Positions 14,391 through 48,087 of a stretch of DNA of 64,000 nucleotides are shown in pieces. Every line of letters begins with the position of its first letter. The first letter of the stretch is position 1. The position numbers and the translations under genes are program-made. The notes under the pieces were generated by a model. The model did not search any database and was not told the DNA's origin. It saw nothing but the letters and a program-made list of their open reading frames with translations. This stretch comes from Pseudaquidulcibacter saccharophilus (GTDB taxonomy: Bacteria > Pseudomonadota > Alphaproteobacteria > Caulobacterales > Aquidulcibacteraceae), in contig NZ_JAHWUS010000004.1 of NCBI RefSeq assembly GCF_019455445.1, positions 62,001-126,000 of the forward strand. The letters are read 5' to 3'.

Positions 14391-17021
14391 TTAGAATTCA
14401 CCAGCTATACCAATTCGAGCGCCAGAATTTCCAGAACCTGCTGTTGAATAACCAAATGTAACGGCTAAATTAGTTGGCGCATTAATTCGGTGTGCAAATG
14501 ATGCGGAAAATGCGCCTTCGCTTTTATAGCTTCCGAAATTTACGCTATAAGTTGTTTTACCAGGCGCAGAGGGCATTGGGGCGGGTGCCATTGCCATTGC
14601 CATTGCAATGCCTTGGCGCGCTTCATTGCGATTTTCACCCAATACTTTATTCAAATTTGATACATCAGTTTGTAAATTTGAAATTTGATTTGCATAACTT
14701 GCGCTTGCTACTTGCAAACTATTAATCTGGCTTGTGTGTGTTGCAATAGCTTGATTTTGAGTTACGTCCGAAGCCTGTAATGCTGTAATCTGATTTGTAT
14801 GCGCCACAAGCGTTTGACTTTGTGTAACGTTAGATGATTGTAAAGCAGAAATTTGATTAGAATGATTAGTCAAAACCACATCTTGGGCGGCATCTTTTTC
14901 CTGAATGGTTGCTATTTGTGCACTATGTATATTTAGTTGATTGTTCTGATTTGTATCTGATGTTTGTAGTGTGTTTATTGCCGCGCTATTATCAGTACCT
15001 ACGCCTCCTGAAGCATTTGACAATGAATCTATTTGCGTTTGTTGCGTTGTATTAACTGTTTCGAGTGATGCGATACGCGCTTCATGGCTATTTAAATTGC
15101 TAATCACCATGGCGTAATTGGCATTCAAAGCATCTATCTGTGGCTGATAATTAACGCCACCAAATGCACCAATCCCTGCAAGGGCGTTGTTTAATTGTCG
15201 TAGATTAACGGCATCAGTATCTTGAGTGCCGTCAGCAAGGCTAGTTAATTGACGTAAAAATGACCCTTCGCCTATGCCGTTACCACGCCCAATTGAAACC
15301 GCATATTGGCGATCAGTATATGAATTTGCACCCAACGCAATAGAATTAAAAGCCGAAGCTGCCGCATTATCACCGATTGCAATCGCTTTGTCGGAATTGG
15401 TATTGGCAGTAGATCCAATTGCAATAGACGAACTATTATTTGCCTTTGCGCCGGAACCCAATGCCAAAGAGTCAATGTATCCACGTGCATAAGCATTATT
15501 GCCAATTGCAATTCCTTGAATAGATGATGCTTCAGATTGAAAGCCATAAGCAGAGCTGTATTCACCACCAGCAAAACTACCCTGTCCTGTTGCAGTAGAT
15601 CCAATGCCACTTGCAGAAGCCTGCATACCCAATGCCGTTGCGCCCCCTGCACTTGAATTTGATAAGTAACCTAATGAAATAGAGTTTTGCCCCGATGCAT
15701 TGGCTTCTTCACCAAAGGCGCTTGCGCCATTCGCTAATGCATTCGCCTTAGTGCCAATCGCAGTGGTATTATCAAACAGGGTGGTTATGCCGTTTACAAT
15801 ATCAAATAAATAACCTGCATTAGCATAATTCCCTAATGCCACTGAATTAGTTCCTCCTGCATTTGTAAAGTAACCAATGGCATTATTATCTATACCATAT
15901 GCGTGAACCGAAGAACCAATTGCCAAGGAATTGTCTAAATCTGCAACTGAAAATGAACCAATGGAGGTTGAATTTACGCCTAAAGCATTAGAGCTGTAAC
16001 CAAGCGCCAAACTATAATTAAATTGGGCAGTGGCATTACTTCCGAAAACTGTAGCGCCAAGCCCAAATAACGTAGTCGTATTTGTTGGCGCGTCATAAAC
16101 ATAGCTACCTGCCTTTGCGCCAGATCCAATTGCAGTACTATTGTCATAATAGGCTTTAGCATCATTACCAAAAGATATTGCGCCTCTTGAATTTGATAAG
16201 GCATGGTTTCCAAACGCAATTGCATTTATTCCAATTGCGTTTGAAGCACCGATTGCGATTGTAAAATCACCATTCGCGGTTGTTCCGCTGCCAATAGCCA
16301 GTGCAGAATCGCCAGTTGCGTTTGAATAATTTCCAAAAACATTTGACCATGCACTATTGGCATTAGAGTTTGCGCCAAATACATTGGAATTATATCCAAA
16401 TGCCTTAGAGCTTGCCCCAAATACACTTGCAAAATCAGCGTTTGCTATCGATTTATCGCCCATTGCGATTGATGAAGATCCCATTGCTGCTGAGTTTGTG
16501 CCAATGGAAGTTGAAAAACTTCCGTAGGCCCAAGAACCATAGCCAAGCGCAATTGAATCCGCACTCCTAGCTGAGGCCATGCCACCAATTGCAATTGAAT
16601 TCATGCCTGATGCATCTGAAAACGTGCCAAAAGCACTAGAATTCTGGCCAGATGCACTAGAATTTTTACCGGCAGCTATTGAGTATGTGCCGTTTGCAGA
16701 TGAAAACTGCCCTACCGCAGTCGAACCTTCGGCATACGCATGCGATTGTTGGCCAATTGCCGTAGATTTTTCACCTGTCGCTTCTGTACCATCACCGATG
16801 GCCGTTGAACTTAGACCGGTTGCATGTGCCGCAGACCCTAAAGCGGTTGAATTATCACCCGTAGCTTGTGAACCATTTCCGACAGCAGTATCTGAACCAT
16901 GGGTTGCCGTACCACCTGCAATAGCGACTTGTGCATTTGCGGAATTAATATCTGCATTCATTGCAATTAATAATGCGGGAATGGAAATTTTTAATATATG
17001 AAACGCCGATTTTTTAGTCAT
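14391..17021 (-). CDS. YadA-like trimeric autotransporter adhesin
   Basis: An 876-residue surface adhesin. A signal region (about 1-30, ending SANAQ) leads into a long head of 14-residue YadA/Hia left-handed repeats (NSTALGSAAHATGLS, AIGDGTEATGEKST and many more, to about residue 600). A neck (TDAVNLRQLN, about 610) and a coiled-coil stalk made of 21-residue units (about 644-768) follow. The C-terminal YadA anchor (about 800-876: YSVNFGSYKSEGAFSASFAHR... NLAVTFGYSTAG... GIAGEF) forms the trimeric barrel. The start is backed by AAGGATGA upstream. It is divergent from an AraC regulator that could control it. Confidence 0.95.
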   Translation of the reverse strand: MTKKSAFHILKISIPALLIAMNADINSANAQVAIAGGTATHGSDTAVGNGSQATGDNSTALGSAAHATGLSSTAIGDGTEATGEKSTAIGQQSHAYAEGSTAVGQFSSANGTYSIAAGKNSSASGQNSSAFGTFSDASGMNSIAIGGMASARSADSIALGYGSWAYGSFSTSIGTNSAAMGSSSIAMGDKSIANADFASVFGASSKAFGYNSNVFGANSNANSAWSNVFGNYSNATGDSALAIGSGTTANGDFTIAIGASNAIGINAIAFGNHALSNSRGAISFGNDAKAYYDNSTAIGSGAKAGSYVYDAPTNTTTLFGLGATVFGSNATAQFNYSLALGYSSNALGVNSTSIGSFSVADLDNSLAIGSSVHAYGIDNNAIGYFTNAGGTNSVALGNYANAGYLFDIVNGITTLFDNTTAIGTKANALANGASAFGEEANASGQNSISLGYLSNSSAGGATALGMQASASGIGSTATGQGSFAGGEYSSAYGFQSEASSIQGIAIGNNAYARGYIDSLALGSGAKANNSSSIAIGSTANTNSDKAIAIGDNAAASAFNSIALGANSYTDRQYAVSIGRGNGIGEGSFLRQLTSLADGTQDTDAVNLRQLNNALAGIGAFGGVNYQPQIDALNANYAMVISNLNSHEARIASLETVNTTQQTQIDSLSNASGGVGTDNSAAINTLQTSDTNQNNQLNIHSAQIATIQEKDAAQDVVLTNHSNQISALQSSNVTQSQTLVAHTNQITALQASDVTQNQAIATHTSQINSLQVASASYANQISNLQTDVSNLNKVLGENRNEARQGIAMAMAMAPAPMPSAPGKTTYSVNFGSYKSEGAFSASFAHRINAPTNLAVTFGYSTAGSGNSGARIGIAGEF

Positions 17022-37997: not shown

Positions 37998-39728
37998 TTA
38001 CTCCTTAATCATGTGAAGATGTTCAACAACAGGGCCAAGCGCTAGTGATGGCGCATAAGTTAATACGCCAACCAAAATAATGACCCCAATAAGAATGCCG
38101 ACAAATAATGGTGTATGGGTCGGTAAAGTTCCTGCTGAAATTGGAATATGTTTTTTACCAGCCAATGAACCAGCTAAAGCAAGGGTTGGAATAATAATCC
38201 AATACCGCCCTGCCAACATGCAAACCCCAAGCAATGTGTTATAGAATGGACTGTTCGCGCCAAGACCGGCAAAAGCAGAGCCATTATTATTTGCCGCAGA
38301 GGTAAATGCATACAAAACCTCGCTAAAACCTTGTGCGCCATTATTGAAAATGCCTGCCTGTCCTGCTTTGGTCATGAGAGCGATGGACACACCGATAAGC
38401 ACAAAAAGGCTTGGTACCAAAACCGCCAAAGATGCCATTTTCATCTCATAAGATTGAATCTTTTTACCAAGATATTCCGGTGTTCGACCTACCATAAGGC
38501 CTGCTATAAATACGGTCATAATGACGAAGTGTAACATTCCATAAAGACCAGATCCTACGCCACCGAATACAACTTCGCCGAACATCATCAACACCATAGG
38601 TACAAGCCCGCCAAGCGGTGTAAAGCTGTCGTGCATGGCATTTACCGAACCATTGGATGCGGCGGTGGTAGCACTTGCCCAAAGGGCAGAATTAACAATG
38701 CCAAAGCGTGTTTCTTTGCCTTCCATATTACCACCGGCTTGAAGCGAATTTACGCTTTGATCTATGTTCAACGTGGTAAGGACGTGGTTGCCAGCCTGTT
38801 CTTGAGTGACGCAAAAAATTAATAATGGCGCAAAAATCAAAACCATTGCGGCAATTATAGCAAGACCTTGCTTTTTATCATTAACCATCACGCCATATGT
38901 TTGGCAAAGGGCAACCGGAATAAGTAGAATTGAAACTACTTCAATAAAATTGCTTATTGGGGTTGGGTTTTCAAATGGGTGGGCGGAATTTACATTAAAG
39001 AAACCACCACCATTAGTGCCAAGCATTTTAATTGCTTCTTGAGATGCAACAGGGCCCATTGCAATAGTTTGCTTTGCACCTTCAAGGGTTGTTATTTCAA
39101 GATAATTTTGAAAGTTTTGAATGACGCCGCTTAGACCCAATAAGATTGCAACAATTAGGGAAAGTGGTAGTAAAATGTATAGGTTTGCACGCGTGACATC
39201 TGCCCAAAAATTTCCAATGTCACTGGTTTCAACACCTCTTAACCCGCGAATTAGTGCGATTAATACGCTTAAACCAACTGCCGCTGATACAAAGTTTTGG
39301 GTGCAAAGACCTGCCATTTGGGAAAAATAGCTTAAAGTGCTTTCGCCGCCATAAGATTGCCAGTTTGTATTGGTGATGAAGCTAACTGCGGTATTGAATG
39401 CCAGGTGTGGTGAAAGTCCAGCAAACTTTTGCGGATTAAATGGCAAAAGTCCTTGGAATAATAAGATTAAATATAAAAGCACGAAACCTGCAAATGAAAA
39501 TGCTAAAAGTGTAATTGCATATTCACGCCAATTCATTCCTTTTTCAGGATTAATGCTCAATAAATTGTATATGGATTTTTCGATTGGCTTAAAAATAGGG
39601 CTTAAAACAGTGTTTTTCCCTGAAAAGACGTTCGCCATATAATTGCCAATTGGAATATAAAAAATTGCCAATATTAAAAAATATGCGACGAGTTGTAATA
39701 AGCCGTTCATCGTAAGAAGATGTGCCAT
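37998..39728 (-). CDS. kdpA: KdpA potassium channel-like subunit
   Basis: The 576-residue K+-binding, channel-like subunit with ten helices and four pore loops of the SKT superfamily. Pore motifs include [36 protein letters not shown], and [13 protein letters not shown]-like [13 protein letters not shown] near residue 475. It is the first large gene of the operon, after kdpF. The family's usual length is about 560. Confidence 0.96.
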
Positions 39729-39754
39729 CTTGATACCTCAATTCACGGGAAAGT

Positions 39755-39847
39755 TCATGGGAATAGTTCAGGCTTTAGCAAAGCCACGAACAGATAAATT
39801 AGTAATGCAGCTGCAATGATTGCGGCTATGGCATAAAATATGGTCAT
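39755..39847 (-). CDS. kdpF: KdpF small membrane subunit
   Basis: A 30-residue single-helix peptide (MTIFYAIAAIIAAALLIYLF, then VALLKPELFP) immediately before kdpA, as KdpF is in other bacteria, where it stabilises the complex. It overlaps the upstream 31-codon ORF by ATGA. Too short for most gene finders, but the position, helix and the diverged second copy at 29875-30039 support it. Confidence 0.88.
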   Translation of the reverse strand: MTIFYAIAAIIAAALLIYLFVALLKPELFP

Positions 39848-39939
39848 TTTTCTGTCGCCTTCATTCTGTCAAGATAAACCACTACTGCACCAGTTAATGC
39901 AAAGAAAAACGCGCAGATAAATAAATATACAAAAGCCAT
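39844..39939 (-). CDS. 31-residue membrane leader protein of the kdp operon
   Basis: A 31-codon ORF with a strong AGGAGG site, ending in the ATGA overlap with kdpF. It encodes one hydrophobic helix starting MAFVYLFICAFFFALTGAVV and a charged cytoplasmic-type tail (LDRMKATEK). A diverged but intact copy at 30036-30131 keeps 24 of 31 residues. I do not know a named family. It may be an extra small subunit of KdpFABC or a regulator of KdpD; both are inference. Confidence 0.75.
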   Translation of the reverse strand: MAFVYLFICAFFFALTGAVVVYLDRMKATEK

Positions 39940-40100
39940 TTTGACCTCCTGTCATGAAGGGGTTTAATATTTTCGGTGTATATTGGTTGTTAATTTATTG
40001 CCGTGGCGCGTATGAAAAGCGTAAAGATTTATTGAAATCGGTTATTGGTTTTATTGGTGAAGACAAACTTGCGCGCAATGTAATGTACAAATTGGGGAAT

Positions 40101-40180
40101 TTAGCACACTTTAAAGCCAGAATAGGGAATGGACTCGCGTTGTCTAGCACATAATTTAGCACATAAAAATATTTAGCAGA
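40101..40180 (+). repeat. Direct repeats TTAGCACA next to tRNA-end copy 3
   Basis: Four near-identical octamers lie within 80 bases: TTAGCACA (40101), CTAGCACA (40144), TTAGCACA (40156) and TTAGCAGA (40173). They are just left of the att-like copy 3. Short direct repeats beside a core site are what integrase arm-binding sites look like. The similar ATTTACACATAAAA before copy 2 is weaker. Function is inferred. Confidence 0.5.
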
Positions 40181-40220
40181 TGAAAATACAAATTAAAACA
40201 ATTAATTATGCAAAATAAAA

Positions 40221-40270
40221 TCAGGCTCATAACCTGAAGGCCGCAGGTTCAAATCCTGCCCCCGCACCCA
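40221..40270 (+). repeat. tRNA-fMet 3'-end fragment, copy 3 (putative att site)
   Basis: The most complete copy, 50 bases. It includes the full anticodon arm (TCAGG-CTCATAA-CCTGA), variable loop, T-arm and acceptor 3' strand to CCCA. The D-arm and 5' acceptor strand are absent. About 85 bases downstream (40271-40354) resemble the downstream flank of copy 4 (for example AAACACACAATA, TTATTACTCACAG, AAATCTCACCT). A 34-codon minus-strand ORF (40333-40437, ending SSPIGEI plus three codons) falls in this region; its meaning is unclear. The remaining sequence of 39940-40482 shows nothing else. Confidence 0.9.
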
Positions 40271-40482
40271 AAACACACAATAAGTCATTTATTACTCACA
40301 GCCGAGAAAAATATTCAGCGGCTTTAATAGGCTTAAATATTACAAATCTCACCTATCGGTGATGAAATTGCAATCAGCTTCTTTGGATGACTATCTCTCA
40401 TTTGTAATCCTTGCCAGAACAAGAAAATTATATTCATAAGCTACCTGTTTTGATAGCATAGGCTTTTGTGTGAAATTACGTT

Positions 40483-41316
40483 TCAAATCTTTAAGAAATC
40501 AATTGTATATTTCAAGAAGGATTCAGCCTGTTCCCAGTGGGGGTAATGACCGCAATTTTCAATGATTGCAAGTTTTGAATTTTCAATTAATTCATGAGCA
40601 ATGTTTGCCTGAAAAAGCGGAAAAACTTTATCTTGTTTCCCCCAGATTATTAGACAATCACATTTAATATTACGAGCACATTCACGGAAACTTTCAACAT
40701 TCTTTACGCCAAAAGGTCCAATGCCACTTTTGACACATCGTATAAAGGCTCTTTGATAGCCTTTCATTGAAGAGTATTTAGTGATTGTTTCAAGTAATTC
40801 ATGCGTCACGTTATTTTTATCTGCCATTGAAAGTGACATTGAAAATTTATTTGATGAATATGAAGGTGTTCCAAGTATGTAACCGATTAAAGGTAAAGAA
40901 GGTGCCCTCATAATAATATTACATTCACGACCAAAGCCACCAGGCGCCATAAGGATTATTTTATTCATCCTGTGTTGGTGCTTTTTACTAAGCCTTACTA
41001 AAGTGCTACCGCCAAGAGAGCTTCCAATTAGATGCGCATTTTCGATATTAAGGGTATCCATAAAAGCAATGATTTGTTCACCGAAAAATTCAGAATCATA
41101 ATTTACATTAGGTTTATCTGCTTGACCAAAACCTGGAAAATCAAACGCCAATACACGGAATTTATCTTTTAACCCGTCAATAATTTTCCCCCATATTTCA
41201 ATCGATAAAGCAAGACCATGTAATAAAATTACGGCTTCGCCATTCCCACCGCTGTCATAATAACGCGTAAAATAATTATTATTAAGTTTTATAATTTGGG
41301 TATTAAAATTAAACAT
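40483..41316 (-). CDS. Alpha/beta-fold hydrolase
   Basis: A 277-residue soluble hydrolase. The oxyanion HG motif is VILLHGLALS (about 30), the nucleophile elbow is HLIGSSLGGSTL (Ser at about 99), the acid is probably in LIIWGKQDKVFP (about 220) and the catalytic His in IENCGHYPHWEQA (about 255). This is the C-C bond hydrolase/haloperoxidase-like branch, with unknown substrate. It is divergent from the five-gene operon and starts 83 bases away, so it may belong to the same pathway. Confidence 0.85.
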   Translation of the reverse strand: MFNFNTQIIKLNNNYFTRYYDSGGNGEAVILLHGLALSIEIWGKIIDGLKDKFRVLAFDFPGFGQADKPNVNYDSEFFGEQIIAFMDTLNIENAHLIGSSLGGSTLVRLSKKHQHRMNKIILMAPGGFGRECNIIMRAPSLPLIGYILGTPSYSSNKFSMSLSMADKNNVTHELLETITKYSSMKGYQRAFIRCVKSGIGPFGVKNVESFRECARNIKCDCLIIWGKQDKVFPLFQANIAHELIENSKLAIIENCGHYPHWEQAESFLKYTIDFLKI

Positions 41317-41399
41317 GGCAGAGAATATTAATCTAAAACAACCTTATCTCAATATTAATATTTAAAGTTTATATATTTTATTAAGGGGCTGATGATTTC

Positions 41400-42332
41400 A
41401 TGTTTTTTGATATATTAACTTCACAAAGGTTAAATCTATCTTTTTCACCATCTAAAGACATAAAAGTTCGAATAATTGAATGCCCAGGTGAGTGGTTGCC
41501 CGACAATGAACTTAAAGAACTAGCAAATGAATGTAAAACGATTGCTAGAGAATGCCTTAAGGGTGTTGTTTTGGATTATGGAATCTTTTCCGATGATCCG
41601 GAAAATTTAAAAAATACAATCATAACATTAATCAAAAATAATAAAGATGAACCGATCGCTTTTAATGCAATGCCACTAATTAAAGTGAATATTGGTGGTA
41701 GTCAGACGGAATTATTACATCTTGGCCTTGTTATGGTTCGCCCCGATGTAAGATCATCAGGGTTGTCATGGATACTTTATGGTTTAACATGCATATTATT
41801 ATTTACAAGGCGGCAACTACGACCTTTATGGGTTAGCAGCGTAACCCAAGTTCCTGCTGTTGTTGGTATGGTTGCGCAAACATTTGACAATGTTTGGCCA
41901 GCACAAAAAGGTACAGAGCCAAGTTTTGCCCATCAGTATATTGCAAGACAAATTATGGGCTCATATCGCCATATTTTTGGCGTTGGCGACGATGCCGGCT
42001 ATGAGATTGACAACAGTATAATAACTAACGCTTATACTGGTGGTTCTGATAATCTTAAAAAAACTTTTGCCGATGCACAGAAACACCGTGACGCTGTTTA
42101 TAATGAATTTTGCTTGGAGCGCTTAAATTACGAACGAGGCGATGATGTTCTGCAAATCGGCCAGTTAAATATAAAAAGTGCCGGAGGCTTTATAAGAAAA
42201 TCAACGCCAAAAAACGCAATTCCGCAAATTGTGGTGCAGATTTTACTATTAAGCATTCAGTCGATTGTTGCTCCAATAATTCAATGGATATGTTCTGACA
42301 AACAGCTTGGAAGATTAAGGCCGAACAAATGA
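41400..42332 (+). CDS. GNAT-like acyltransferase, first gene of a five-gene operon
   Basis: A 310-residue protein of uncertain family. The middle (about 100-150) looks like a GNAT core: a beta strand LLHLGLVMVRPDVRSSGLSWILYGL in the place of the acyl-CoA-binding V-x-P-x-x-R-x-x-G loop and helix. The last ~30 residues are hydrophobic (QIVVQILLLSIQSIVAPIIQWI), suggesting membrane association. Its stop codon overlaps the ATG of the next gene. It lies on an operon of four further genes with overlaps of one to eight bases, so the products very likely act together. Confidence 0.6.
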   Translation: MFFDILTSQRLNLSFSPSKDIKVRIIECPGEWLPDNELKELANECKTIARECLKGVVLDYGIFSDDPENLKNTIITLIKNNKDEPIAFNAMPLIKVNIGGSQTELLHLGLVMVRPDVRSSGLSWILYGLTCILLFTRRQLRPLWVSSVTQVPAVVGMVAQTFDNVWPAQKGTEPSFAHQYIARQIMGSYRHIFGVGDDAGYEIDNSIITNAYTGGSDNLKKTFADAQKHRDAVYNEFCLERLNYERGDDVLQIGQLNIKSAGGFIRKSTPKNAIPQIVVQILLLSIQSIVAPIIQWICSDKQLGRLRPNK

Positions 42333-43219
42333 TGGATAATGCTTCAGAAATATTTTCCTATAAAACCATGATTACGCGTAATGCAGGTTTTATTAATGCT
42401 GATGAACAGGGTAAATTGCGTAATGCAAGAGTTTTTATTCCAGGCATAGGCGGAATGGGTGGCGCGGCGTTTATGGCAATGTTACGTGCAGGTATCGGAA
42501 ATTTTATAATTGCAGATCTTGATGGTTTTGAAATTTCCAACCTTAATCGACAATTATTTTGCAATCTTGATACGGTAAATATTCACAAAGCAGTCGCAGC
42601 AAAAGCACAAGCGCTTAAAATAAACCCTGAAGTGAATATAGAAGTTTATCACGGTGACTGGACTGAGAATTTAGAAGAAATAGCTACAAAGTCTGATATT
42701 TTTGTAAATGGAATGGATGATGCCGCTGCTGGCGTCCATTTATATCGCATTGCCAAAAAGCATGGGTTAAAAGTCATTGATGCTTATGCTTCGCCATTGC
42801 CATCTGTAACAATGGTTTGCCCTGAAGACCCGCGCCCGGAGGAGCGCTTAAATTACCCGACAATAGGCATAGATTGGAAAAACATCACACGGGAAATGCG
42901 CAATGAATGTCTAATGCGGGAAATCGAATATGTATTGGTAAATTCAAATTCGCATAAATATGTTGATTTGGAAATTGCCGCGGAAGTAGCTGCGGGTAAG
43001 CGTTCGCGTTTTTCATTTTCAACCATGGTAACTATGGCAGGAACTATGATGGCTGAAGAAGCTATTCGACAAATTTTAGGGCGTGCAGGCGGTGCAGATT
43101 ATCGTGGTTATTTCTTTAATACTCACACCACCAAAACCGAAAGACCGTTATCGCCATTATTAGCAAATATAAAGCTTTATTTCGTAAGAAAGTTTTTAAA
43201 TAAGCTGATAGGTGAGTAA
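42329..43219 (+). CDS. ThiF/MoeB/E1-like adenylyltransferase
   Basis: A 296-residue member of the E1-like superfamily, which adenylates carboxyl ends of peptides or ubiquitin-like proteins. The nucleotide loop is VFIPGIGGMGGAAFMAML (about 31-48). The signature IIADLDGFEISNLNRQLF (about 57-74) has the Asp, Arg and Asn-x-x-Arg-Gln residues that bind ATP. The second half has DIFVNGMDDAAAGVHLY. I see no paired CxxC zinc site and no obvious catalytic Cys at the usual position, so it may adenylate without a thioester step. Neighbours are GNAT and nitroreductase genes, a context noted for some peptide- or amino-acid-modifying E1 proteins. Confidence 0.88.
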   Translation: MMDNASEIFSYKTMITRNAGFINADEQGKLRNARVFIPGIGGMGGAAFMAMLRAGIGNFIIADLDGFEISNLNRQLFCNLDTVNIHKAVAAKAQALKINPEVNIEVYHGDWTENLEEIATKSDIFVNGMDDAAAGVHLYRIAKKHGLKVIDAYASPLPSVTMVCPEDPRPEERLNYPTIGIDWKNITREMRNECLMREIEYVLVNSNSHKYVDLEIAAEVAAGKRSRFSFSTMVTMAGTMMAEEAIRQILGRAGGADYRGYFFNTHTTKTERPLSPLLANIKLYFVRKFLNKLIGE

Positions 43220-44382
43220 TGCTCATAGCGGATGCAATTCTAAACTTTATAACACTGATTGGCGTGGTTGCCGCATTTCTGGCTGGTCTTAAACCAAATA
43301 AGTCAAGCTTAGACAATAAACTTAGTATTCTATACGGAAGTTTAGTTGTGTTTTTCCTCGCTCGGCAAATTTTTTATTTTCATTTGTTGCCCTTTTTGGT
43401 GAATATTATAATGGCATCAGGTGCAATCATGCCATTCTTAATATTATTGATTGCCGAAGAAGTTTTAAGACGACACGCAAAAAAATATATCAAACTTTTT
43501 GTATTAGTCGGCGCAGGAATTTTCTTCGCTGGCGCACTGTTTCTGGGAGCGGTATGGCCAGTTTTTTGGTTGACGCTTTTTGCGGCATATTGCGCACTAA
43601 GCCTTTTGATAATTACGTTATTTTTGATTAAAAACCGCAATAATCAAAATTCACTCTTTGAAACAAAAATGGTGGATAGTTTTACAATCGCAATTGCCGT
43701 TTGCTCATTACTTGTAGTTACTGAATTTAGGGGGTTGTGGCCGAATATACCGATAACTTTGGGGGCAATTGGCATACTAATTTTTGTAAATACCACATAT
43801 GCATTGTCGTCGGAAAAAGGATCGCCACGAGAGCTTTTACAGGATTTGGCAATCATATCTCTAAGCGTGACATTATTAGATATTGCTATTTTAATATTGC
43901 GACCTGGTGTTGGCTTTAATTTGATGATGCAAGTTTGGGCTTTTGCCTTTGCGATAAATATTGTTCTTCTTGGTCTTTATCGAAACATTGAAAATTATCT
44001 TGATGCAAGATTCGGTAAAAACCTCCTCGAAAAAATTAGCGAGATTGGCGATAATTCAAGCCTTAATGAAATTATTTCAGCACATCCTTTAACTTCATCA
44101 GGGAAAATTCTGGGTTTAAAGGAATTGCAATTATACGATGACGAAACAATAAGTGATTTTTTACAAGAGCGTGTGATAAATCGCGAAACCTATACCAAAA
44201 CTAAAACCGCAGAGGCATTATCAAATCTATTAGATGAAACAGGGGCTAATTATCTTCTGCGCCTCAATAGGTCTCCCGCAAAATTTTTGGCAATTGCTAC
44301 TGGGCAAATTGGCTTTGATAAAAAATTGGACACAGAACTGAGAATATTTACCTTAATTGCCGAAAGGGCAGGTAATGATTAA
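43219..44382 (+). CDS. Polytopic membrane protein of unknown family
   Basis: A 387-residue protein. The first 250 residues hold about eight hydrophobic helices (for example LILLIAEEVLRRHAKKYIKL, and LFLGAVWPVFWLTLFAAY). The remainder is a soluble C-terminal domain of about 130 residues (SLNEIISAHPLTSSGKILG; TGANYLLRLNRSPAKFLAIA) that faintly resembles a small sensory domain. I do not recognise a family. It starts on the last base of the ThiF-like gene and overlaps the next by eight, so it is an integral part of the operon, perhaps as a transporter or membrane scaffold. Confidence 0.65.
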   Translation: MLIADAILNFITLIGVVAAFLAGLKPNKSSLDNKLSILYGSLVVFFLARQIFYFHLLPFLVNIIMASGAIMPFLILLIAEEVLRRHAKKYIKLFVLVGAGIFFAGALFLGAVWPVFWLTLFAAYCALSLLIITLFLIKNRNNQNSLFETKMVDSFTIAIAVCSLLVVTEFRGLWPNIPITLGAIGILIFVNTTYALSSEKGSPRELLQDLAIISLSVTLLDIAILILRPGVGFNLMMQVWAFAFAINIVLLGLYRNIENYLDARFGKNLLEKISEIGDNSSLNEIISAHPLTSSGKILGLKELQLYDDETISDFLQERVINRETYTKTKTAEALSNLLDETGANYLLRLNRSPAKFLAIATGQIGFDKKLDTELRIFTLIAERAGND

Positions 44383-45472
44383 ATTAGTTGAAAATGACAA
44401 AGCGGCATTTTTTGAAACCACATTCAATATTTACGATGACACTGATAATTATGTTGCACCAATGAAATCGGATATATTCCGATTTCTGGATGCTGAAAAA
44501 AACCCGTTATTCAGTTGTGGTAACCCTTTTAAGTTTTGGGTGGTTTTTGAAGGCGGAAAACCTGTTGGCCGGATTATTGCCAATATTCACCGCCAATCTA
44601 ATGAATTACACAGTATTAAACGTGCTCAATTTGGTTTTTTTGACTGCAAAAATGATGATAAAATTGCGAAAATTTTGCTTGATGTTGCCGCTGAATTTGC
44701 AAGTGAATATGGCATGACAGAGCTTGTCGGAAATTTTAACCTTACCGCAATGCAACAGGCGGGAATTGTTACCGAAGGATTTGGCGTTAAAACTTATACT
44801 GATATGGTTGTAAACCCGCCATATATTCCAAAGTTGCTTGAAAAAAATGGATTTATACGATTTTTTCCAATGTCTACGTTCACCCTTGATGTCGCCAATG
44901 CCACAATAAATGCCCCAGATTATGAGGAGTTTACCGCCCGTGGTTTTAGCTTTGCTCCAATCTTGCGTAAAGATTTTAAAAAAAGAATGGAAGAAGCTCG
45001 CATCGTCTTAAATGATGGCTTTAGTGAAAACCCAATGTTTGTTCCACTAACACCAGAGGAATTCACATTTCAGGCACAAGAAATGATGTCGATACTTGAC
45101 CCCAGATTATCTGCAATAGTGCATCATGACGGGAAACCTGTTGGTACGATAATTTGTATCCCTGATTTGAATGGTTTTATGAAAGATTCCAAATCAAGAT
45201 ATAATTTTATGACCTTATTCAATTTCATAAAATATCGCTTTAACCGCAAACGGGCAGTTATAATTTTTTATTCAGTGGCAAAAGAATTTCATAAAATGGG
45301 AATTAACCCTGCAATGTTGGGGCATGTTATTAAAGCACTTAAAGTCGGCGGTTATGAAGAATTGGGGATTACCTGGATAGCCGACATAAATAAAGCCAGC
45401 CTTAGACAAATTGAAAAAATCGGCGCAAAAAAATTGCAAGGCCTGCATCTTTTTAAAAAGGAAATCTCATAA
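44375..45472 (+). CDS. GNAT-family acetyltransferase, YghO-like
   Basis: A 365-residue soluble protein resembling the YghO-type GNAT family. The blocks DNYVAPMKSDIFRFLDAEKNPLF (about 19-41), FKFWVVFEGGKPVGRIIANI, QFGFFDCKNDDKIAKILLDVA and TELVGNFNLTAMQQAGIVTEGF are visible. ATG 44375 lies after AAAGGGCAGG and overlaps the previous gene; the longer frame is not needed. The acyl acceptor is unknown. Together with the ThiF-like and nitroreductase genes it suggests building of a small modified metabolite or peptide. Confidence 0.78.
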   Translation: MIKLVENDKAAFFETTFNIYDDTDNYVAPMKSDIFRFLDAEKNPLFSCGNPFKFWVVFEGGKPVGRIIANIHRQSNELHSIKRAQFGFFDCKNDDKIAKILLDVAAEFASEYGMTELVGNFNLTAMQQAGIVTEGFGVKTYTDMVVNPPYIPKLLEKNGFIRFFPMSTFTLDVANATINAPDYEEFTARGFSFAPILRKDFKKRMEEARIVLNDGFSENPMFVPLTPEEFTFQAQEMMSILDPRLSAIVHHDGKPVGTIICIPDLNGFMKDSKSRYNFMTLFNFIKYRFNRKRAVIIFYSVAKEFHKMGINPAMLGHVIKALKVGGYEELGITWIADINKASLRQIEKIGAKKLQGLHLFKKEIS

Positions 45473-46461
45473 TGTTGTTTACACGTGAACAGCAATTAAA
45501 ACTTATTGCTGCGGTTGCAAACGCACCAAGCGTACATAATGTTCAACCAGCACGTTTTCATTTCACGGGTGATAATATTTACCTTTTAGAAGATTTAACT
45601 CGTCGTATTCCATGTGGTGACCCAATGGGGCGTGATACAGGTTTTAGCCTTGGAATTGCCGCCGAAGGATTAAGGATAGAGCTTGCAAATCAAGGCTACT
45701 CGCTTGTTGATAAGGGTGAGTTTGACAGTGATATTGGCTTTGGAAATAACATTAAAACGTGCAGGGCTTTTGAAATCACAAAAGGTGCAGGAAAACATCC
45801 GCTTGCAGAATTTGTAACTAAAAGATATTCACAACGTGGGAATTTTAATAAAGTGCTTCCCCGGGATACTGCCGCCGCAAAATCATTATCTGACGATAAT
45901 ATTATTTCTGTAACCGAAAAAGAAGATTTAAAAGAAATTGGTAAGATTTATGATGCCGCAAGCCTAAGATTTTTTCGGGATGATAATTTTCGCGAAGAAT
46001 TATTATCGTGGATGCGCCTTTCCAAAAAACACCCCAAATGGTCTATTGATGGTCTAAATTATGATGCAATGGCAATGTCCGAATTTGAAGCGAAAGCAGC
46101 GGGCATTGTATTAAGCAAAAAAATATTTCCCTTGATTGATAAAATTGGGCTGGGGGGGCCAATAACAGCCGAAGCAGGCAAAGTTATTGGAAGTGCGGGC
46201 GTAATATTATTACACCGCCCAAAAACCGAAAGCCATTATGAAAGCGGAAGACATTTTTACCTAACCTGGCTTAAAATTGTTGCAAATGGCTTTCAAGCGG
46301 CGGTAATGGCTTCTTTGGCAGATGATATAGAATGTCAGAATCTTTTATGCAATAAATATAATATTGGCAACGAAAGACGAATTATTACCACATTTCGTAT
46401 AGGTCGTTCCGATAATATGGCAATTCGCGCGCGGTTAAAGCCAGAGGATTTGTTATTATAG
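45472..46461 (+). CDS. Nitroreductase-fold flavoprotein, Acg-like
   Basis: A 329-residue protein with the nitroreductase (FMN) fold in the arrangement of the Acg/Rv3131 group. The N-terminus is ANAPSVHNVQPARFHF (about 16-31), followed by RRIPCGDPMGRDTGFSLGIAAEGLRIELA (about 44-72). A second half (VTKRYSQRGNF; LGGPITAEAGKVIGSAGVILLH) mirrors the first, as in single-chain fused dimers. It starts on the last base of the GNAT gene. It ends six bases inside the convergent cytochrome gene. A redox step in the operon's pathway is the likely role. Confidence 0.8.
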   Translation: MLFTREQQLKLIAAVANAPSVHNVQPARFHFTGDNIYLLEDLTRRIPCGDPMGRDTGFSLGIAAEGLRIELANQGYSLVDKGEFDSDIGFGNNIKTCRAFEITKGAGKHPLAEFVTKRYSQRGNFNKVLPRDTAAAKSLSDDNIISVTEKEDLKEIGKIYDAASLRFFRDDNFREELLSWMRLSKKHPKWSIDGLNYDAMAMSEFEAKAAGIVLSKKIFPLIDKIGLGGPITAEAGKVIGSAGVILLHRPKTESHYESGRHFYLTWLKIVANGFQAAVMASLADDIECQNLLCNKYNIGNERRIITTFRIGRSDNMAIRARLKPEDLLL

Positions 46462-48087
46462 TAATTTAAGATATTCGATTAAAGACTTTTGGTCATCAGG
46501 TGTTAATTCTGACCCGTAATCATGCCCCGAATTTGACATTCCGGATTTTGTCGTTTCGTATATTTCAGGTTTTGACCACGGTTTATAGTTTGCGGGATAA
46601 TTTCCGTTCTCATCAATCTTTATCCCAAGTTTGACGAAATCAAGGCTATGCCCACCAGTCATAAATTTTTTTGGTCTTTTTGACGGGTTTAATAACGCAT
46701 CAATAGTGGGAACAGAACCATTATGAAGATATGGCGCACTTTGCCATATGCCTGATAATGGTGTTCCGACATATTCACCGGTATGTTTGGCGATCAAATC
46801 TTTTTTATAAATTGTAGAATTTACTGCATTTGCCGCATTTTGATTAAATACCTGCGCCCGTCTTTTATCGGTTCCGACATCACCAATCCAATTTGGGAAT
46901 TGCACCAATTTTGGATTAGATAAATCATAATTATAATATCCGTGACAGGACGCACATTTTTCACCATAAATTCCTTCACCCTTTTTGGCTGCAACCATAT
47001 TGATTTTTGCAGGGTATTTGGGCGCGTGATAATCTTTTAAAAATGCATAGACATCTTTGGCTTTGTTGTAATTTCTATGGGTTACATTTGGACTTACTCC
47101 CATGCTTGGTACAGAAAAGAAACTTGTAATTATTGCAAGTCTGTCGATGCTTTTTTGGTTTATGTCCTTATATTTCAAAGGAATTTGTCTTTTATCCTTG
47201 CTTGGTGCATAGGCCCCATCATAAAGCATTGAGCTTCGCCAAGCCCTGTCTCCAAGGTCGGGAATTGATGTGAAACCTGTTTCATTGTTGCCACCATCAT
47301 CCATATCCAATTTCATCATAAGTTTAAGTGCGGCAACACCGTTTGTAACCCCAGGTGAACCGCTAGGAAATGGTAAAGCACGTCCACTTTTTGCAAGCAT
47401 TTTCATACGATTTTCTATTTGCGGCAGAATGAAATATTTAATCATAAACATTTCGGTGGCGGTGGTTTCAGGATAAATTTGTTTTATGGTCTTCAGTAAG
47501 CGTTCTTTATCATTAAGGCTGATTATGTATGAATTATAAACCTCTTGTATATAGGCCTCTAAATTAAGTGAAGTATTGGGTGATCCGAGCCATATTTTAT
47601 CTGTATTAGGTGTACCATCTTCATTATATAAAACGCCGCTATGACAAGATGAACAGCCAATATTTGCCATCTGAACCCCTAAAAGATTACCATAAACCAT
47701 GCCATTGGGTAATTGCGATTTTATGGGTTTTGCACCTTTAGGAAAATTTGCAATTTCTTTGTATTTTAGAAAACCAAATTGTTGGAAAATATTATCAATT
47801 TCAGATTTATTTGTTTTGATATTGGGGTTAATATGCTGTTCATTAATGATAAGCGATGCAGTAGTTATTTTCCACGGAATAGCATGTGTCTTCAAAGCTC
47901 CTAAACTTAACCCGCCCCAAGCGTCGCCTGAAAAATAAAAAGCGCCACGCTCTTTGGGTGATAAATTTGGCAAATCTGAAGCGACTAAATCCGAATTTGC
48001 ACCATTTTCAAATTTCTTGAAAATAAAAATACCAAACACAACAATAATAAAAATTATTACAAAAATTGATAAATTTCGTTTTTTCAT
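46456..48087 (-). CDS. Membrane-anchored two-haem c-type cytochrome
   Basis: A 543-residue protein with an N-terminal anchor (LSIFVIIFIIVVFGIFIF) and a periplasmic body. There are two CxxCH haem sites, CSSCH at residues 145-149 and CASCH near 380 (GEGIYGEKCASCHGYY). The segment TGEYVGTPLSGIWQSAPYLHNGSVPTIDALL near the end is typical of the di-haem cytochrome c peroxidase / 'cytochrome c family' group, where its Met or His can ligate haem. Enzymatic role is unknown. It converges on the nitroreductase gene. Confidence 0.82.
   Translation of the reverse strand: MKKRNLSIFVIIFIIVVFGIFIFKKFENGANSDLVASDLPNLSPKERGAFYFSGDAWGGLSLGALKTHAIPWKITTASLIINEQHINPNIKTNKSEIDNIFQQFGFLKYKEIANFPKGAKPIKSQLPNGMVYGNLLGVQMANIGCSSCHSGVLYNEDGTPNTDKIWLGSPNTSLNLEAYIQEVYNSYIISLNDKERLLKTIKQIYPETTATEMFMIKYFILPQIENRMKMLAKSGRALPFPSGSPGVTNGVAALKLMMKLDMDDGGNNETGFTSIPDLGDRAWRSSMLYDGAYAPSKDKRQIPLKYKDINQKSIDRLAIITSFFSVPSMGVSPNVTHRNYNKAKDVYAFLKDYHAPKYPAKINMVAAKKGEGIYGEKCASCHGYYNYDLSNPKLVQFPNWIGDVGTDKRRAQVFNQNAANAVNSTIYKKDLIAKHTGEYVGTPLSGIWQSAPYLHNGSVPTIDALLNPSKRPKKFMTGGHSLDFVKLGIKIDENGNYPANYKPWSKPEIYETTKSGMSNSGHDYGSELTPDDQKSLIEYLKLL

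Follow-up and report, generated by a model that had tools for sequence, protein, structure and literature searches.

Some bacteria make N-acyl oxazolones with an acyltransferase, a ThiF protein and a nitroreductase-fold oxidase, a pathway described in the available text of two papers (PMC10404671, PMC12856293). Here we consider a five-gene operon at positions 41400-46461 of a 64,000-nucleotide stretch of Pseudaquidulcibacter saccharophilus DNA (contig NZ_JAHWUS010000004.1, positions 62,001 to 126,000; the whole stretch is called the window). The operon encodes an acyltransferase-like protein (orf1), a ThiF/E1-like enzyme, a membrane protein, a second acyltransferase of the GNAT type and an Acg-type flavin oxidase. 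We conclude that it is probably an enlarged form of the N-acyl oxazolone pathway, Alphaproteobacteria-centered in this sample, and we infer its chemistry and product.

TyzACB of Mycobacterium tuberculosis makes C12:0-tyrazolone. TyzA has 41 homologues, and OxzA shares its scaffold despite low identity; a fold like that of GNAT proteins and N-acyl homoserine lactone (AHL) synthases is reported for both (PMC10404671, available text). This sets a precedent for divergent acyltransferases in oxazolone chemistry. Like the window operon, TyzACB has separate genes for an acyltransferase, a ThiF cyclase and a flavin-dependent oxidase, its acyltransferase is of divergent sequence with an AHL-synthase-like fold, and a membrane-transporter gene, mmpL9, flanks the set; tyzC and mmpL9 mutants have a common phenotype. 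It differs in that tyzA is on the opposite strand, that the available text neither describes mmpL9 as part of the pathway nor names a second GNAT, and that we liken the two by description rather than by sequence. The flanking mmpL9 may be an analogous transport partner rather than a homologous one.

Other described systems are similar in part. OxzAB makes tyrazolones and phenazolones in Pseudoalteromonas rubra (known to us through the available text of PMC10404671, PMC12856293 and PMC12479983), and the ThiF and oxidase of loci that we call OxzB-like are homologous by profile to those of the window. The two proteins are fused in OxzB and in one such locus (L128), whereas they are separate in the window. 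TrzAS, which makes tryptazolones in Actinomycetota, also combines an acyltransferase, a ThiF protein and an oxidase, and the window's versions of the latter two score with the Rv1355c (TrzS) model; in TrzAS, however, ThiF and oxidase are fused, genes for cyclic di-GMP adjoin, and no membrane partner is mentioned in the available text (PMC12856293). Asp217 of TrzS is needed for cyclization (same source) and probably corresponds to a conserved Asp of the window ThiF. In the NasY/stieleriacine, kyonggic acid and thalassotalic acid clusters, genes for an N-acyl amino acid synthase, a ThiF protein and a nitroreductase occur together, in two producers in an operon-like arrangement, but the isolated products are open-chain N-acyl dehydrotyrosines, and neither a membrane partner nor a second GNAT is mentioned in the available text (PMC12479983).

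The original prediction knew of no characterized pathway with this composition. A described pathway of the core composition does exist, because the kinship of the ThiF and the oxidase to OxzB-type proteins is distant but clear and both match the TrzS model; no homology to a described pathway was found for the other three proteins, orf1, the membrane protein and the GNAT, in the available text of PMC10404671 and PMC12856293. The core pathway is therefore already known, and what differs here is orf1, the constant membrane protein, the second GNAT and a frequent di-heme cytochrome c.

In the scheme that we propose, orf1 would N-acylate an amino acid with a fatty acyl group. By homology, ThiF would adenylate the carboxylate and close a 5(4H)-oxazolone, from which the flavin oxidase would remove two hydrogens with O2 to give an alkylidene oxazolone or, should the ring open or ThiF be absent, an N-acyl dehydroamino acid. 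The membrane protein, as the dedicated partner of orf1, would export, dock or sense the product, and the second GNAT and the di-heme cytochrome, present in subsets of loci, would be tailoring partners. We hold with moderate confidence that the operon first builds an N-acyl amino acid and then turns it into a ring. An amino-acid conjugate or signaling lipid, as suggested in the original prediction of a small biosynthesis-and-export pathway, fits this scheme, but the sole pointer to export is a multi-helix membrane protein. As to a modified peptide, also suggested, the E1-like enzyme of the known pathway needs no peptide, and in a simple listing of the open reading frames (ORFs) upstream of the operon, at 39700-41420, we saw only small mechanical ORFs and no precursor peptide.

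Features of the operon and its immediate neighbors in the window.
Feature	Coordinates	Strand	Details
orf1, GNAT-fold acyltransferase of unnamed family	41400..42332	+	310 aa; probable N-acyl amino acid synthase
ThiF/E1-like adenylyltransferase, probable cyclase	42329..43219	+	296 aa; PF00899
9-helix membrane protein with cytoplasmic C-terminal domain	43219..44382	+	387 aa; model, loop charges
Second GNAT-type acyltransferase	44375..45472	+	365 aa; PF00583
Acg/nitroreductase-fold flavin-dependent oxidase, probable desaturase	45472..46461	+	329 aa; NF047509
Di-heme c-type cytochrome, RoxA-like, convergent	46456..48087	-	543 aa; PF21419
Alpha/beta hydrolase, divergent, adjoins orf1	40483..41316	-	PF00561 E 2.5e-30

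All five ORFs were confirmed on one strand, with neighbor overlaps of 4, 1, 8 and 1 bases and no intergenic space, in line with the overlapping operon (1 to 8 bases) first noted. The families then named for its genes (ThiF, GNAT, Acg-type oxidoreductase) are recognized by Pfam/NCBIfam. The second GNAT is taken to start at the ATG at 44375, the mechanical ORF starting at TTG 44357. The overlaps had also been read as fixing the ratio of the products, which gene overlap by itself does not show. Scans for promoter-like sites (31 versus 33.0 expected) and terminator-like sites (10 versus 6.9 expected) were uninformative.

The genes are conserved together. Scanning a collection with orf1 yielded 207 relatives, of which the best 80 were kept, a sample that favors close relatives (loci are cited by L numbers). 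Genes at each locus were counted with length and position filters, and later analyses used a rebuilt ThiF profile; the rebuilt sets, the window's copies included, hold 76 distinct of 86 orf1 rows, 54 of 64 ThiF rows and 41 of 43 cytochrome rows. The full set orf1-ThiF-membrane protein-GNAT-oxidase occurs in 45 of the 80 loci, always in identical order and on one strand; among these, L066 has broken membrane-protein and oxidase frames, and the other frames were judged by length. L042 and L094 have the full set with one gene split into two ORFs (the oxidase and the GNAT, respectively), ten loci lack the GNAT only, two hold orf1, the membrane protein and the oxidase, 18 hold orf1 and the membrane protein only, and three (L092, L055, L063) are cut by contig ends. 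Every ThiF-bearing locus with a long enough contig also has the oxidase (split in L042). By title, nearly all 80 loci are from Alphaproteobacteria, including Sphingomonas, Ensifer, Shinella and Mesorhizobium; L046 and L055 are unplaced Proteobacteria, and L099 is a metagenome-assembled genome titled Thermoanaerobaculia.

Ten plasmid records carry a window-type ThiF, and the same ten hold orf1 and homologues of the membrane protein and the oxidase; a plasmid search with the oxidase gave two additional records with weak matches and without the operon's orf1. The five-gene order is kept in the four plasmid examples examined (Rhizobium, Shinella and Ensifer; three annotated, and L016 by tblastn and profile). 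At the three annotated loci orf1 is called hypothetical and the upstream genes differ, a downstream block being common to Shinella and Ensifer. Because the one-strand order recurs in 45 of 80 loci and also on plasmids with differing upstream genes, the arrangement is more than chance, and the co-conservation that the original prediction proposed to check is what we found. Phage records held no orf1 at E 0.001. Among 150 searched relatives, a window-type ThiF is present in 11 (the window's genome counted), and in none of the four genomes of the window's own genus. The other ten ThiF-positive relatives all have orf1, ThiF and the oxidase (orf1 is broken in L018, ThiF in L027); three of them, from one genus, lack the GNAT and keep the membrane protein.

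The ThiF protein (PF00899, E 2.5e-39) is probably a cyclase, judging from its sequence. It matches the Rv1355c-family (TrzS) model NF005901 with E 1.3e-11, below the model cut-off. For comparison, 398 Pseudomonadota genomes were searched with the PRK14851 model, and the 15 matches at E 1e-60 gave the OxzB-like loci (L128-L142). Window-type ThiF aligns with these 15 rows with an hhalign E of 9.1e-34, a kinship that rests on the OxzB-like rows and the Rv1355c model in place of the sequences of OxzB, TyzB and TrzS. In a tree with randomly sampled window-type ThiF (24 rows, 21 distinct), the window-type and OxzB-like proteins form two joined clades, apart (100/99) from an outgroup of 13 rows of housekeeping type (ThiF/MoeB, same order), which was labeled MoeB in this analysis. 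The nucleotide loop GxGGxG, R74, K87 and D130/D131 are kept in the window ThiF, which has three cysteines and no CxxC. The absence of CxxC zinc pairs, noted at the outset, holds throughout the 54 distinct ThiF sequences of the window type, that of the window among them.

The oxidase is probably a desaturase, again by sequence comparison. It matches the Acg-type model NF047509 (E 6.7e-32; 111 bits, under the model cut-off of 199), NF005901 (E 9.7e-12) and, by profile, the Acg structure 2ymv (E 2.4e-12), and it aligns with five OxzB-like oxidases with an hhalign E of 2.5e-20. The L089 and L097 loci have the oxidase and lack ThiF, which would fit a desaturation step able to work by itself.

Both enzymes also bear on a very improbable alternative, a conserved operon of an unrelated kind, for stress or detoxification, whose ThiF and nitroreductase-fold proteins modify proteins or xenobiotics. 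ThiF matches E1-E2 defense models (best E 3.2e-11) and the oxidase resembles Acg, but the alignments to the E1-E2 models extend over just a part of the adenylation domain, and orf1 and the membrane protein match no defense model. The ten proteins scanned between 40483 and 54162 contain no E2, protease or ubiquitin-like domain, and ubiquitin-like conjugation was rejected on this ground.

Several points weigh against a ring-forming pathway. The profile identities to the OxzB-like rows are remote (24% for ThiF, 17% for the oxidase), so another carboxylate may be the substrate, and the label OxzB-like was itself assigned in this analysis. The ThiF tree has a single outgroup family and a midpoint root. 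The window oxidase scores 111 bits on the Acg/Rv3131 model versus 44 and 42 on the fusion models, unlike the OxzB-like oxidases, which score about equally on both. It is thus no more than a candidate for the FDO-A type expected beside ThiF, and Acg-type FDO-B proteins are held not to act in oxazolone synthesis (PMC10404671, available text). Only six of the 15 fetched OxzB-like stretches contain an oxidase (fused in L128; beside ThiF in L129, L130, L131, L133 and L138), which means that such ThiF genes are not always paired with one. The 80 loci cannot reveal ThiF sets without orf1, because the scan started from orf1. Finally, a TIGR03694 exosortase-associated acyltransferase is found in ten of the 15 OxzB-like loci and shows no sequence kinship to orf1 (hhalign probability 0.53%, E 0.11; best blastp E 0.037). 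This comparison covers these ten synthases alone, and an acyltransferase of their type is not a requirement for the whole family of pathways (OxzAB, TyzACB, TrzAS). The TIGR03694 model matches none of 66 orf1 rows, and the window-type orf1, membrane-protein and GNAT profiles have no match in the 15 OxzB-like loci. As a separate observation, the presence of TIGR03694 near ThiF in these ten loci and the lack of an oxidase in nine of the 15 fetched stretches suggest a link to PEP-CTERM systems and cyclase-only variants.

orf1 is probably a GNAT-fold acyltransferase and an N-acyl amino acid synthase, as suggested by its predicted structure. It matches no Pfam/NCBIfam family. When loci more than 92% alike were left out, 65 of the 80 plus the window gave an alignment of 66 rows, and Pfam/NCBIfam scans of these rows gave weak, scattered matches only, including GNAT (PF00583, best E 0.0049) in ten rows and marginal NodA matches in two (best E 0.025). 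A NodA search of the genome of L066 found no match anywhere and is uninformative, and a PDB search with orf1 gave nothing significant. The structure prediction called for at the outset was run, and the AlphaFold2 model (predicted local distance difference test score, pLDDT, 86.8) has a GNAT fold, in agreement with the first description of the gene as acyltransferase-like. Its best Foldseek match is NatD (E 3.2e-5); by VIA-align it resembles GCN5 (Z 11.1, root-mean-square deviation (rmsd) 3.2, 160 aligned) and the AHL synthases RpaI (Z 10.0), LasI (10.0) and BjaI (9.8), near ties about 1 Z below the top. FeeM is absent among the 50 matches listed, though the model may still resemble it. The shared GNAT fold does not fix the substrate of orf1.

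It is possible, though unlikely, that the orf1 product is an acylated amine, sugar or phospholipid head group rather than an N-acyl alpha-amino acid, and that the second GNAT or a nucleophile takes up the adenylated carboxylate in place of cyclization. The dissimilarity of orf1 to the OxzB-associated synthases, the marginal NodA matches and the presence of the second GNAT in 46 of the 80 loci (and, split, in L094) are consistent with this, whereas the ThiF and oxidase group with oxazolone enzymes, and the ten of 80 loci with ThiF but without the GNAT imply that ThiF is useful without it.

The membrane protein has no Pfam/NCBIfam family match. Its model (pLDDT 92.5) has nine helices. Mean numbers of K and R per loop (65 rows) are 2.7, 3.6, 2.5, 2.0 and 3.1 at alternate positions and 0.06, 0.4, 0.6, 1.3 and 0.5 at the others, and because the K/R-rich loops alternate, we place the N-terminus outside and the C-terminal domain, which to the eye only is GAF-like, in the cytoplasm. 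For the alignment, L066 (broken) and L099 were dropped from 66 listed rows. The protein is encoded in 78 of the 80 loci, the contigs of the other two ending first. Its profile and that of orf1 match the same three of 385 alphaproteobacterial genomes, the window's included, and neither these genomes nor the plasmid collection hold the membrane protein without orf1. The best reading is that it is a dedicated partner of orf1 for export, docking or sensing; sensing, docking and membrane-bound catalysis fit it as well as export does.

Rather unlikely, in our view, is a signaling unit in which an acylated signal made by orf1 is received by the membrane protein, with the cytoplasmic domain of the latter as output, and ThiF and the oxidase tune the signal. 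Consistent with this reading, the membrane protein is confined, in the genomes and plasmids searched, to those with orf1, is kept in loci lacking the rest, has the N-terminus out and the C-terminal domain in, and varies fast (14-31% identity to the window's, versus 44-56% for orf1). Over helices 1-7 it is similar to receptor/rhodopsin bundles (Z 15.8, rmsd 4.7, 209 aligned), but this level is usual for helical bundles, Z near 14 being common for helical models; the best Foldseek match (E 0.042) is not significant, a PDB search gave nothing significant, and no output domain was identified in the protein. That it is instead an enzyme, such as a membrane-bound acyltransferase acting on the orf1 product, seems quite improbable. 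Five alignment columns are invariant, among them R49, E80, H86 and K92, and Acyl_transf_3 has the lowest Pfam E-value among 65 rows (0.0015, two rows), but two of 65 rows at such E-values are within chance for membrane proteins, and the other weak matches in these Pfam/NCBIfam scans point elsewhere (TnaB permease, 4e-5, one row; 7TMR-DISM, 0.0068, two rows).

The loci with only orf1 and the membrane protein suggest how the set evolves. In the orf1 tree (66 rows, midpoint root), ten pair-only rows fall within clades of fuller loci, well-supported branches require four changes or more, and in pair-only L086 fragments of the GNAT and the oxidase remain. ThiF matches exist in every pair-only genome searched (18 handles, 17 distinct, since G246 and G885 coincide in position), the best being 31-39% identical over 106-149 residues, compared with mostly 55-69% over about 285 residues (50% in one) for operon-type ThiF among the 150 relatives. 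Oxidase matches were found in six of the 18; one is the truncated remnant of L086 (53% over 161 residues) and the others are 26-30% identical. Given such weak matches, the operon's ThiF and oxidase are missing rather than moved. Repeated loss is the simplest reading, and regain or transfer is possible. We regard as doubtful the possibility that orf1 and the membrane protein are a self-contained two-gene unit for a lipid signal or lipid export, with the oxazolone-forming ThiF/oxidase set as an optional modifier shed several times; in that case orf1, a GNAT-fold synthase of a kind unlike the OxzB-associated ones, would supply an acylated molecule to which the membrane protein, resembling a receptor or exporter, is devoted. 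We found no earlier description of the orf1/membrane-protein set in the part of the open literature covered.

The role of bacterial acyl oxazolones has been called a major unresolved question (PMC12856293, Discussion, available text). The window-type operon adds a constant membrane partner and natural strains without single steps. Function becomes testable by comparing pair-only strains, strains whose locus has the oxidase and lacks ThiF, and full-set strains, and the carriers include the culturable genera Sphingomonas, Ensifer, Shinella and Mesorhizobium. orf1 would define a new acyltransferase family, now annotated as hypothetical.

The second GNAT matches PF00583 (E 4.8e-9) over residues 239-350, and a PDB search with it gave nothing significant. 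Its family is wide, with members in 40 of 289 alphaproteobacterial genomes (39 besides the window's) at 21-29% identity outside the window's own. The cytochrome, which is probably periplasmic, matches PF21419 (E 1.7e-18) and has CxxCH at 145 and 378; two CxxCH motifs are found in all 41 distinct relatives. Residues 383-475 match structure 4b2n, which we take to be RoxA, with E 7.8e-9. The gene converges on the oxidase gene, with an overlap of 6 bases in the window. It follows the oxidase on the opposite strand in 34 of the 80 loci, all with ThiF, and abuts it in 32 of these 34, lying 417 bases off in L033 and 2641 bases off in L102; in the 14 loci examined first it is present in 11. The divergent hydrolase gene was correctly predicted to adjoin the operon, but it is an inconstant neighbor in relatives. 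At L026 a homologue (45% identity) sits right behind the cytochrome gene, and the same placement is seen at six of the 80 loci (L030, L032, L033, L043, L058, L068), whereas in the window the hydrolase is upstream. Cytochrome and hydrolase may both process the product.

A motif search also found a large acyl-[ACP]--phospholipid O-acyltransferase gene, so named from the annotation of L015 and L017, in 17 loci with or without ThiF and the oxidase (L015-L017, L049, L050, L051, L054, L059, L066, L071, L076, L082, L086, L087, L088, L090, L101). It is convergent and downstream in L015, L017, L071, L076, L086 and L088.

Elsewhere in the window, a tRNA was suspected near 40202-40288 from a small minus-strand ORF there, whose peptide presumably represents a common spurious translation; ARAGORN found no tRNA in the window. 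Two overlapping tryptophan-halogenase ORFs (PF04820; 59119-60624 and 60563-62134, + strand) lie behind a TonB-dependent receptor, and 14391-17021 (- strand) encodes a trimeric autotransporter adhesin-like protein with YadA head repeats.

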